From positions 24,336,646 through 24,400,645 of the forward strand of contig NC_088311.1 in assembly GCF_910592395.1 (NCBI RefSeq): DNA of 64,000 bases. Reading direction: 5' to 3'. Below the pieces are notes generated by a model. The model made no database searches, had not been told where the DNA came from, and saw nothing but the letters and a program-made list of their open reading frames with translations. Shown piece by piece: positions 54,001-63,000 of the stretch. A program made the position numbers and the translations under genes. The DNA is from Lineus longissimus (taxonomy: Eukaryota > Nemertea > Pilidiophora > Heteronemertea > Lineidae). The stretch's first letter is position 1, and every line of letters starts with the position of its first letter.

Positions 54001-57000
54001 GAGAGAGCCTTTTCGTGAAATCTTTGCGAATAAGTTGACGAGGCATCTCAAAGGAGTCGTAGCTGACTTGATGGGCTGCCACATTCATAAAATATTCACT
54101 CTGTTATGTTGATGGTGCATCTAGTTCGACTTGTACGTGAATGCCAGTATGGCTCTTTGAGTGGGGTGGCGGGGTCTTTGAGATACTGGCTGTGACTTGG
54201 AGGAATGCCGGATATGCCAGAGGGTGATATTGGCATGCTTCTTTGCATTTGCAAAAACCTGTGTGGCACAACGCTCAAATGAACTGGTTGCCATTTCACA
54301 GAATTTTCCCTAAATTACAAAAATCCATCAATCAGTAGTGGCAATGGCTGCAGTGGCCTGACATTTATTCATGCTGTGACAGCAGTGATATTTGTTATCC
54401 GAGATATTTCACGATGTCATGGTATAGACTAGAAAAGGGGATTTGTGTTTCAGTAGTGTAAAATGGCCAACACCGACCAGTGTTGTGGGCCCCAAACGTA
54501 ACGTAATCTTACGAGAAATCCCATCTTTACGTTAGCAAGCCATCGATCAATATACTTGGTATATGTAAAGAGTCTGTCAGACTCGTGTGTGTGCACGGAT
54601 CATATAAAGACCCCTAGGGTTGTATTGATTCCTGTCTTCATTCTGTAATACATCTTTAACGGATGGTTTGGTGAATCGCGTGGACATGCTACCCTAATTG
54701 TTAATATTCTTGCTCATCGGAATCCATAAACATCATTATGAAATAGTGGGATAGAAGTTCAGAAGAGGCTGGTTACAATGTTGTCATTCCCAGCCCAGGG
54801 GCTGTGTTTTGATTGCATTCGCTACAGATATGATTCACCTGATAGAGCATTGCTTATCTTGCATTAGTTAGCCTTCTGTTTGAGGCTGGAGGGTATTGAT
54901 GGAATGCGACATATCTTAGAGGGGCCATGGTCGGGATAGAGAAAGATAGCAGATCTACCCTCATAAATAACCACGTCGGCCAAACGATCTCAAAACTTGT
55001 TGAAATAAGGAGTTAAAAATAGATTTAATGCTTTTCTTGTCGGCTGAGACAAAGTGCCTTCAAGGCATTTTAATGATTTTCTGGTCTGTTTGATTAAATC
55101 AACAAAGCTGTTGTCATGGAGCGACAGTTTTTTGTCCCATTTCAAAAAAAGTTGTAATTTCACAATTTTTTTCATTATTACCTACTCATGTGATAGCGAT
55201 GTTAAAAAGGTCTCTGTGAAATGTCTGATGGAAACCTATATCGGCTTAATGGTTTGTGTAACATGGGTCAATACTGTCATGAAAATAGCTCCAGTACGAG
55301 TTGTCGCTTGCGCAGAAAACTTACGTATTTGCAAAAGTCTGTTTTGTTGGAGCTTATGATTGATGTTTTCTTTCCTCTTTCTCTTCAGAACTTATTTGCA
55401 CTAGTCTACGACGAGGACCCAGAGGTTCGCAAGAACGTATGCCGGGCGCTCGTCATGCTGATCGATGTCCGTATGGACCGACTCATACCACACATCAACA
55501 ACATCATCGAGGTAAGTCGACACACCTGAGCAGCGGCAATGGTACACTTCATTGCCGGCAACCACTGTTGAAATAGGGAGAGAAAAACATAAAATTCCAA
55601 AATCTAACTTGATAAATGATGCCTTGCAGAATGATGACACTTTACAAAGAATGAAGGATCTCATCCTAATGAGTTTACTCCTTTTGTATTCGTACTGTCT
55701 GACAGCAAGTGTAGATACAGCTCTCTTCTGCCACAGGAGTTTCCATAAAACAGGTTACCGTGGGAGTGTTGTGTCAGTTTTGGTTGGTGCTGCCGTACTG
55801 GCTGTCATTCCTGTGCCTTGTACGGGCCGTAACATTTAATTCTCTTGTCGTTTCAGTACATGTTACTCAGAACCCAGGATGAAGATGAAGGTGTGGCATT
55901 GGAGGCGTGTGAGTTCTGGGTGGCTCTGGCCGACCAGCCCATCTGTACAGAGGTTCTCCCCCCTCACAAGGAAGCCCTCATCCCTGTGCTCGTACAGGGG
56001 ATGAAGTATTCAGAAATTGACATCATATTACTGAAGGTAAGCTATGAGACTACCTGATCTTCCATCCTCAGAAAACCAGGTTTGAGTTAAATGATACACA
56101 TCTTAGACAGCCTTTGCAATAAGTTCCTTTTCGAGGTTTTGCACTGTTGGGCTCTGGCTTTGGAATGATTAGTAATATTTCACCTCATTTGACTTATCGA
56201 ATGATAATTTACATCATTATGACCTTAGCCAGCTGAATATCCATGATTTCTTATTCTTTCTGCTGCAACATTGGAAAGGAAAACTGTCTAAGTTAGAGCC
56301 TGGAATGATTTGCTGTCGAGGTTTCCTCTTGATGCAAATGCAGCTGCTGATGTTTAAAAACATTTGAATGATTTCCCAAAACTGATTTCTTCCCATTTCA
56401 CGATCCTCTTGTTTGCTTTTCTAGGGCGACGTAGAGGAAGATGAATCCGTACCTGACAGGGAATCGGACATCAAACCTCGCTTCCATAAATCCAAGACTC
56501 ACAGTCAGAAGAGACAAGGAGATGTAAGTACACTCTAAATAACTAAAACCTTGTAGGTGTCCAACAACATGGTCAGACCCTGTGGCATGATGACATTTCT
56601 GCTCAGAAGGATCATAACCTTTTGATGAAGTCTTCTATTGTATTCGTACTGTCTGACCACAATCATACACCATTGTTGCTGAACTTCAAAGCAGTCACAT
56701 CAAAAACATTCTCTATGGTGTTGCTAACGTTACAAAAGAACTTGTTGACATGTTGAGTTGGCACGTCACCTGGGATTAATCTGGGTTTTTTCAGCATCAT
56801 TGTCACTGGTCATTCTAAGCGTATTTTTTGATGCTGTCTAAGGCTGGCATAGTTCCAAGTTTTGTTTTGAACTCAAAGCCTGGAGTGGCAGAGAGGAAGG
56901 AATAAACTAAAGGCCTTCAAAATAATGCCAGGTTATCTGGACGTCTAGCTAATTCTTGTACATCAACTTTCAGGGCGACTCTGATAATGACGATGATGAC

Positions 57001-60000: not shown

Positions 60001-63000
60001 CTATTGACAACCAGGTTTACTTCGACCTTGCTATTAGTATGTGGTCAGTCATGAAAAGAGGTGTTCTGTTTTGGATAAAAGGCCCGTAAGGTCTTTGTCA
60101 GAATCGATTTCATGGTCCAAAAGTTTGTTGCTCCTGTGGTTAGTTTATGTTCTACCTTGATTCTTCATGGGTGATTCCATCATTGTGCTATTGTTTTCAG
60201 GCAAATCAAAGAAACCCAGAGCAGTTTGAGGCCCCTGATAAGGACTTCATGATCGTCGCCCTGGACCTACTCAGTGGCCTGGCCGAGGGCTTAGAACACC
60301 ATATAGAATCACTTGTGTCGAAAAGTAACATTCTCAAGCTGTTATTTCAATGTATGCAGGTAAGTCTGTTTAGAAATGGGATTTGATTGACAGATGATTT
60401 TTAACAGACGTTTCATAAGTATATCGCCATATGCATGTATGATGTCTTCGACATGGTCAGGCAACACCAATTGGCCGCACGCATGCCTGGTACGCAATGA
60501 CAATGTTGATTTCGAACGGTATCCAACATTGATTGCTGGTACCAACAAAGTCTGCAGCCAAATCGCTGCTAACCTTCTGGTTGCTGACAATAGCCACTGT
60601 TCAGTTTGGCACTAGATTGTTCAAAGTGTTCCTTGATGTTGAAACTTATGACTTACGTGGCCTGGGAATGATGATATCCTTCGGAGGTTTTACTGAGGGG
60701 ACAACATTGTCCTTAATGACAGGATCTGTATTCGTACACTGACCTAAGGCCAAGTCAACACTTTATCTAACATTGATTTGAATTCTTCCTAAAATGACCT
60801 TTATTGACGGCAAACCCTTTCTTCTTGTAGGACCCTATGCCAGAAGTTCGACAGAGCTCATTTGCCCTCCTTGGTGATCTGACTAAGGCTTGTTTCCAGC
60901 ATGTGTTGCCATTCATTGGTGAGTCAAACTCTAGTGAATTCACCTCTTTCTAAATGTTCTTGTCTCATTGGACAAGATTAGGATGGTGTAGATTGGATGG
61001 TTTATAGACACGTTCTTCACTTGACCATATCGGCTGCCAATATGTCCAGCCACAGATCACAGGCACCCCTCAGCCAACCTAAACTCATCAACACAGTATT
61101 TAAATTTCACCTGCTATAGTTCCCTTCAATGTCTTTTCAGGTGACTTCATGCCGATCCTCGGTGCCAATCTAAACCCCGAGTTCATCTCGGTGTGTAACA
61201 ACGCCACCTGGGCGATAGGAGAGATATCGATCCAGATGGGTACGTCGCCGGCAGACGTCAGCTTTTGCTTCTGTTTCTGAGATGCTTCTCCAGAAATTCT
61301 TCCTGAGGGGTAGAACCTCGCTTCTAGTTTAGTTCTAGAATTTGCACTAGAAAATCAGAATGTCTGACTTGGGCATTTAGGCCGCCTCTCATTCGCATTG
61401 GAATTTCTGGAGTGGGCTCCATGTTGCATGGAAAAGCATGATGTTAGTCCACAAGTGGATGTTGTCAGTTTGAAGTAAATAATAACAAATCTGGGTTGTA
61501 TTAGTTTGAGTTTTGGCGGTATTTATCATGGTTCTGCCGAGCACTTTTATAAAACATATAGCAGCACACCAAGAATTTAGACAAATTAGCAGCACATGAA
61601 ATCAGGATGAACTATGGTCCACATCAAAATTAGGTGTCCGCCTGTCGTACTTGCTTTCCTAATTTCCCATCAAATCTTCCCTGTATGCCTATTGGCCATT
61701 TCTGCTGAAATTGGTTCCTGGATTTACCTGCTAAAATAAGATTCATGGTAACACGCAAAAGATTGTTCTTTGTGTTGCCACGGTCATGTTATCGAAATCG
61801 AAAACCATTTAAAAATCTAAACTTGTACCACCGTTCTGTTCGATCTTTGTTTGACATGAGATATTTTGAAAACGGTACACTTTCTCTGATAGAAAGATGC
61901 TCAAGACTGCCCTGCCAGGCTGGCAATTTGTAGTGCGTGTGATGAATATTCGAACTCTCTCTTACTGACTGCCCTTTGAAGATGGCTTCGTTCTGATGTG
62001 CTACGCTCAACACAGGAGATCTGCCCGAAGATCACTGGCTCAACTCTGTCTAATGAACATTCTCAATGTTATTGGCTATTTCTCCAATGACCCCAAGTTG
62101 ACTGGAGGGGAAGATTGGTTGTATGTGTTTTGGACAAAGGCCCGTGTAAGATTTGATGGGAAATCTAGGAAACGCTTGGTTTTAAGCGGCCCCCTTGTTT
62201 TGCCATGGACCGTAAATATTATGCTTTTGTTTCAGAATTACACAAAGAAAAGGTTAGCGGGACGAATACCCCAGGTCTGTTTGGCTTTCGTTCTTTAAGC
62301 ATAGCTTCTGAGACGTCGCACCTACAACTTGTCAGAGAAACACCCCGAGTCTTTAAAATTGGAGTGGAGATCTTTCAATCTGTGTCGGCTGACCTCATGC
62401 TCACAGAATCATTTGACAGATTAACTTCTCCGTCTTGAGTGCACTCCCTAGGAATCGCTATCCACTTTTGTGGCCATGGGTCATTTTTACTGCGGCCAGC
62501 TCTGCTTTTGCTTTTTATTTTTGGTGATGCCTGTACATTGTGAAAATGAGGGTTTCCTGCATGAACAATGTATTAACACGAACCAATGGCAGTGTAGGAA
62601 TGCGGCATGTCTTCTTGTCTGCCCTAACTGTACATGTATGGTATGTTTTCATCTTATTGCTGCAATCAGCTGTTTGCCTGGCCCAATAGACCGCTTGCCA
62701 ATAAATCTGATTATGCCTTGATATCAAACAAGAGAAGATTTGCCTAGGAAGTGTGCTCATTTCAATTTTATTTTATATCTTTCATTTACAAAACTGTCTT
62801 TATCTGCTCCGACTTTCCGTTCATGCCTGAATAAGAAAGAGTTTTCCTTGGTTCAAAACAGAGAGGTTGCACACCATCTCTGACTCGACTTTACCAAGAG
62901 GACTTCAGCAATGGTGGCCTGTGTTGACAGTCACAGAACAAGTGACTGTCCTGAGATTAACCAAGGGAATGGAAGTGTACCATCGTATTGGGCTTGGCTG

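Follow-up and report, generated by a model that had tools for sequence, protein, structure and literature searches.

How a single host gene comes to carry many related small nucleolar RNAs (snoRNAs), and by what route the copies reach their separate introns, is the question raised by a transportin gene of the nemertean Lineus longissimus, which lies in a 64,000-nucleotide (nt) stretch of contig NC_088311.1 (assembly GCF_910592395.1, positions 24,336,646 to 24,400,645 of the forward strand; hereafter the window). A sequence-only reading of this DNA had described nine box C/D elements in the gene, one per occupied intron, and had attributed them to the expansion of what seemed an ancient host relation with U41 (SNORD41), by duplication from intron to intron. 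Box C/D snoRNAs are bound by fibrillarin, NOP56, NOP58, and SNU13 and are stable as short RNAs. On the evidence of boxes, stems, and guide stretches, it is very probable that transportin hosts nine of them, belonging to three families (SNORD41-like, family A; a family with a shifted guide, family B; and SNORD26-like, family C), while the manner in which the copies arose appears to differ from that first proposed.

The host gene was identified from 16 exons between 52873 and 63937, which a splice model joins at GT/AG borders into one open frame. The spliced product is identical to the Lineus longissimus transportin-1-like isoform X2 (P0002) at 624 of 624 aligned residues, with a gap of 13 residues, in agreement with the first identification of the host, and the whole query aligns to PDB Transportin-1 chains (residues 147-771 of 2qmr_A). 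The gap corresponds to a 39-nt microexon at 62236-62274, located with tblastn and absent from the splice model, which divides intron 18; the snoRNA element of this intron lies 5' of the microexon. According to tblastn with P0002, the first three coding exons lie ahead of the spliced part (one with the start codon at 42067, and two others before 52873); counted from there, the sixth intron is the one at 55512, and the numbering used in the sequence-only reading holds. Two candidate donors for intron 15 (gtaagt and gtgagt, within 59788-59808) stand 15 nt apart and in frame; P0002 uses the first, and a small isoform difference is possible at this position.

Introns 6, 8, 9, 10, 12, 13, 15, 16, and 18 each contain one sense-strand box C/D element. 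A C box (RTGATG) and a D box (CTGA) are present in all nine, and when a tenth copy from a STIL-like gene (described below) is included, the boxes stand at the element ends in every case (RUGAUGA, with RUGAUGU as a variant in introns 9 and 12, and CUGA), 57-75 nt apart from the start of box C to the end of box D. All ten lie inside introns and have the same orientation as the gene that hosts them. The terminal stems expected of box C/D snoRNAs are also found, although the earlier claim of a complementary stem in each element holds less strictly than that of the boxes: seven of the nine transportin elements have 5-9 contiguous pairs, while the stems of intron 6 (6 of 7 pairs) and intron 16 (four more pairs past a bulge, by reading of the sequence) are imperfect. 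A motif scan that required both boxes together with a strong contiguous stem, applied to 13 introns (6-17 and 18a) with 300 shuffles, was positive in 7 of the 13, compared with a shuffle mean of 0.04 and a maximum of 1; introns 6 and 16 were missed, and no element was returned from introns 7, 11, 14, and 17. The scan also gave a candidate in intron 2 (at 45523) that none of the three family models picks. In the window, GTATTCGTAC occurs 6 times (0.03 expected) and GAACTCTCTCTTACTGA 3 times (0.01 expected). With nine occupied introns and one sense element found in each, the gene is a multi-snoRNA host, as had been proposed, and the division into three families, one of U41 type, also stands (Table 1).

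Table 1. Transportin and the ten box C/D elements, in window coordinates (position 1 is the first letter of the window).
Feature	Location	Type	Coordinates	Strand	C box	D' box	D box	Terminal stem	Rfam match or remark
Transportin		TNPO1/2-type, part in window	42067..63937	+					start-codon exon 42067 to exon end 63937; gene runs past window
A0	STIL-like intron 23811-24170	SNORD41-like	23855..23945	+	23868		23932-23935		SNORD41 36.1 bits, E 0.0022, from 23862
A1	intron 6	SNORD41-like	55618..55712	+	55631		55699-55702	one A-A mismatch	
A2	intron 8	SNORD41-like	56574..56664	+	56587		56653-56656	5 bp	SNORD41 31.4 bits, E 0.0075, from 56581
A3	intron 10	SNORD41-like	57720..57811	+	57733		57798-57801	7 bp	SNORD41 26.9 bits, E 0.1, from 57727
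B1	intron 9	shifted guide	57206..57292	+	57218		57278-57281	9 bp	weak, snoR116 E 0.29
B2	intron 12	shifted guide	58470..58556	+	58482		58542-58545	8 bp	weak, snoR116 E 0.046, SNORD83 E 0.83
B3	intron 16	shifted guide	60656..60752	+	60668		60739-60742	4 bp contiguous	
C1	intron 13	SNORD26-like	59120..59200	+	59131	59156	59186-59189	7 bp	SNORD26 43.1 bits, E 5.3e-7, from 59126
C2	intron 15	SNORD26-like	59902..59980	+	59913	59939	59966-59969	6 bp	SNORD26 29.2 bits, E 0.0057, from 59908
C3	intron 18	SNORD26-like	61928..62007	+	61939	61965	61993-61996		SNORD26 25.1 bits, E 0.085, from 61934

Family A extends beyond the gene. An Rfam scan of positions 1-54000 yielded a tenth copy (A0; Rfam match 23862-23940) whose SNORD41 score is the highest in the window, above every transportin copy. 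The reading frame of its host runs on across the intron that holds it, and the host exon at 21087-22819 encodes the Pfam CC_STIL coiled coil (E 1.5e-9); the exon 3' of the intron has no Pfam match. A0 is nearest to the copy in intron 10 (82% over 99 nt) and has 53 nt at 91% in common with that in intron 6, and all four A copies have the same D-guide stretch, GTATTCGTACTGTCTGA. When the SNORD41 model (RF00588) was run on the transportin introns, a check suggested with the first description, it matched in introns 8 and 10, below its cut-off of 41. Family C had been recognized as a separate antisense family, which is correct, but its attribution to the expansion of U41 is not: the element of intron 13 is only 0.9 bits short of the SNORD26 (RF00087) gathering score of 44, and the third family is SNORD26-like, so that the nine-element set is not all the expansion of one U41. 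In all three copies of family B the SNORD41 antisense stretch lies two nucleotides nearer box D, outside the SNORD41 register, and this family is filed only as SNORD41-related. A model built from family A alone matches B1 (E 0.0019) and B2 (E 0.0057) but not B3, and a relationship between families A and B is therefore probable, at any rate for the guide. Models built from each of the three families and run on both strands of the window found no further strong copy; the remaining matches were weak, two of them from model A (43819-43880, E 0.037; 4650-4736, E 0.086) and one from model B, which falls on the minus strand over B2, itself one of the family B sequences (58470-58556, E 0.022).

By analogy with their families, the transportin elements would be freed from the precursor messenger RNA by splicing and trimming, assembled with fibrillarin, and used to direct 2'-O-methylation of 28S ribosomal RNA (rRNA). 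For family A (introns 6, 8, and 10, and STIL), the predicted target is the uridine of 28S CAGUACG, which we take to be human Um4276, the site presumably assigned to SNORD41. The D' guide of family C (introns 13, 15, and 18) would mark the adenosine in AAGAGAGAG, which we assume to be human 28S A389. Tested against assumed 28S pieces, the D guides of all four A copies pair over at least 12 nt with the uridine, and the D' guides of all three C copies over at least 12 nt with the adenosine; with the same assumed pieces, uninterrupted pairing extends over 12-13 nt in family A, 12-13 nt in family C, 10 nt in B1, and 13 nt in B3, starting in each case at guide position -2 and with a standard pair at -5. 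An excerpt of PMC4463414 gives Um4276 as a known site of human 28S, and the SNORD26 target stretch is supported by the 28S primer C2 of a mollusc study, which is the reverse complement of this site as given in part of PMC5851531. In family B (introns 9, 12, and 16), the guide lies two nucleotides nearer box D; by the fifth-nucleotide rule, the residue that B1 and B3 would mark is the cytidine two positions 3' of the SNORD41 uridine. B2 has A instead of G at guide position -5 and pairs with the assumed piece over a run of only 6 nt, with a mismatch at -5; mismatched at the target nucleotide, it is probably failing or redundant. That family B works as predicted is offered as a tentative proposal. 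For the D' stretch of B3, a possible target in 18S rRNA was also considered, but it was dropped, as the match is in the same sense and not antisense.

An alternative is that the majority of the copies are pseudogenes, or belong to a dispersed repeat, with only one working snoRNA per family. The Rfam score of C1 (43.1 bits), far above those of C2 and C3, and the mismatched target nucleotide of B2 are what would be expected under this explanation, whereas the identity of GTATTCGTACTGTCTGA in the four A copies and of GAACTCTCTCTTACTGA in the three C copies, the placement of all ten copies in sense within introns, and the lack of another strong copy in the 64 kb are not. The terminal stems also tend to covary. 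In the four sequences of family A, 3 of 7 pairs are changed on both sides (0 when the alignment is slid by -3 to +2, and 1 when slid by +3), and the paired-cell count and the covariation score were each reached by 6 of 500 shuffles, while the number of pair types was reached by 394; by reading of the alignments, 1 of 7 pairs in family B and 2 of 7 in family C are changed on both sides. With four rows, the covariation in family A is suggestive only. The G-U pairs reported for intron 18 are present (4 of 9 pairs), but they are one-sided wobble changes relative to intron 15 and not compensating ones. The explanation by pseudogenes or a repeat is considered unlikely.

The proposed origin by duplication from intron to intron, taken as duplication of introns, is not supported. 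According to this explanation, whole introns or exon-intron segments of transportin were duplicated, the flanks diverged, and selection kept only the snoRNA. Duplication between introns of one host is the route usually given for C/D paralogs in chicken and human, as described in portions of PMC2653536 and PMC8178906, and old flanks would look unrelated; the flanks of A0 paired with A1 and with A3 are in fact slightly above random. However, pairwise matches between copies extend to the terminal stems and at most a few bases past them, and when 60-nt flanks of five pairs were compared with a random-position control, three of the five were below the random 95% point on both sides. The contrast is sharpest for B1 and B2, which are 97.6% identical over 83 nt, yet have flank identities of 0.38 and 0.32 (random median 0.33, 95% point 0.40). 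The unit that they share runs from 9 nt before box C to 10 nt after box D, and the template therefore held the whole terminal stem. B3 has only 21 nt in common with B1, which indicates that the rest of an element is free to diverge. Moreover, A0 sits in another gene, and the families alternate along transportin (A A B A B C C B C, with no repeated block) while the exons give one ordinary transportin. Duplication of introns or segments is accordingly regarded as quite unlikely. The edges of the matches at the stems and the alternating order fit a process in which the snoRNA unit alone moves from one intron or gene to another, a conclusion that these alignments favor to a moderate degree; candidate routes are retroposition, templated insertion, and gene conversion. 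Finally, that the elements are chance assemblies of common motifs, as the shortness of C and D boxes might suggest, is negligibly probable in view of the shuffle controls of the box and stem scan, the GTATTCGTAC and GAACTCTCTCTTACTGA counts, and the Rfam E value of 5.3e-7 for intron 13.

A number of observations weigh against a set of working snoRNAs that spread as units. At the Rfam gathering threshold the window yields only a transfer RNA, and all snoRNA matches fall below the cut-off, with no match for introns 6 and 16 at E up to 1; C1 also matches snoR38 (30.7 bits, E 0.11) and SNORD100 (E 0.25) weakly. The distance from the D box to the 3' splice site (88-317 nt) reaches beyond the roughly 70-90 nt favored in mammals. 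In family A, the count of doubly changed pairs was reached by 89 of 500 shuffles, a modest result with four rows. The two 28S pieces used for pairing are assumed sequences and are not taken from a nemertean rRNA, and the SNORD41 site patterns had no match in the viral contig or genome contig collections scanned. As to the route, the flanks of A0-A1 (0.45 left, 0.40 right) and of A0-A3 (0.43 right) reach or pass the 95% point, and the A0-A3 match runs 6-8 nt past the 3' end of the element, so some common flank may exist in these two pairs. Around the ten copies, the longest common flank words (4-5 nt) were reached by 32-81% of random positions; neither a target-site duplication above chance nor an A-tail was found in the flanks, and the copying route is therefore unproven. 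The fuller proposal, that family B branched from SNORD41 and took on a new 28S target two nucleotides downstream of Um4276 and that the units spread free-standing between introns and genes (transportin and STIL) in an invertebrate, is advanced as a possibility that falls somewhat short of being probable.

Other features of the window include WD40 and F-box pieces on the minus strand (Pfam; 39091-39378 and 40663-41241), just upstream of transportin. As FBXW9 presumably adjoins TNPO2 in human, this arrangement may be an old linkage. Near the STIL-like gene there is a piece of the adenylate kinase family on the minus strand (Pfam ADK; 5669-6157), possibly a UMP-CMP kinase, and the neighboring piece at 6725-7003 has no Pfam match; CMPK1 is taken here to adjoin STIL in human. 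The minus strand also bears, at 9504-13544, a retrotransposon, probably of Ty3/gypsy type, in which domains for reverse transcriptase, RNase H, and integrase are recognized, and the identical open frames that flank it (8199-8426 and 15097-15324; 8635-9042 and 15533-15940) suggest long direct repeats on either side. An open frame at 30785-32416 on the plus strand is MED26-like (Pfam Med26 and Med26_C). In viral contigs, a SNORD41-like motif gave 16 matches, three with RTGATG no more than 90 nt upstream, all one stretch and taken as chance; the SNORD26 target word gave 108 matches, of which four continue GAG/AAG and none of these reads on as 28S; and none of nine pattern matches encodes a relative of transportin.

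A full-text literature search for Lineus together with snoRNA found no snoRNA study of the genus, its one hit being a paper about the mitochondrial genomes of mollusks. That intronic snoRNAs can pass from one host to another is an accepted view, as stated in an excerpt of PMC3511168, and for C/D snoRNAs both recombination in cis and retroposition have been proposed, according to the relevant part of PMC8178906. In this setting, the locus provides a compact case for tracing copies of known snoRNAs, nucleotide by nucleotide, from intron to intron and from gene to gene; the abrupt ends of the match between the near-identical B1 and B2 bear on how C/D snoRNAs move, and the shifted register of family B amounts to a simple prediction on rRNA methylation.

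Among known systems, the closest is SNORD41 (U41, RF00588) in human TNPO2, which resembles family A in its D guide GUAUUCGUACUG next to box D, its C box, and its terminal stem, and also in having a transportin gene as host. Unlike human SNORD41, the Lineus sequences comprise three A copies in transportin and one in STIL, and those that match Rfam score 26.9-36.1 bits against 41. SNORD26 (U26, RF00087) resembles family C in the D' guide GAACUCUCUCUU before CUGA, the boxes, and the stem; the human host of SNORD26 is the non-coding SNHG1, whereas in Lineus the host is transportin, with three copies, the best at 43.1 against the gathering score of 44. The pairing of U41 with human TNPO2, as given in the sequence-only reading, is supported by a table of PMC6261634, which carries SNORD41-TNPO2 as one joint gene label, although the word 'single' may be too simple, given that part of PMC4053766 reports SNORD41B (ZL2), another human gene. 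According to sections of PMC11028025, it is common for an animal host gene to contain several snoRNAs, for the most part one in each intron, and human C/D family members lie mostly in one host gene according to a passage of PMC8178906. Like the hosts described in those sections of PMC11028025 and in the chicken set of PMC2653536, as excerpted, Lineus transportin has one C/D element per occupied intron and paralogous families in one host; unlike the hosts compared, it holds nine elements, mixes SNORD41-like and SNORD26-like copies, and has a related copy in STIL. Yeast snR13, snR48, and U18 each methylate two sites in one rRNA region, as described in part of PMC5389607, and families A and B are predicted to do likewise, but in yeast this is accomplished by one RNA with an unusual C'/D' motif, whereas in Lineus it would involve two RNA families with two guide registers. 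The locus is a rich new example of the known multi-snoRNA host type, in which the host is unusual and the guide register of family B may be new.

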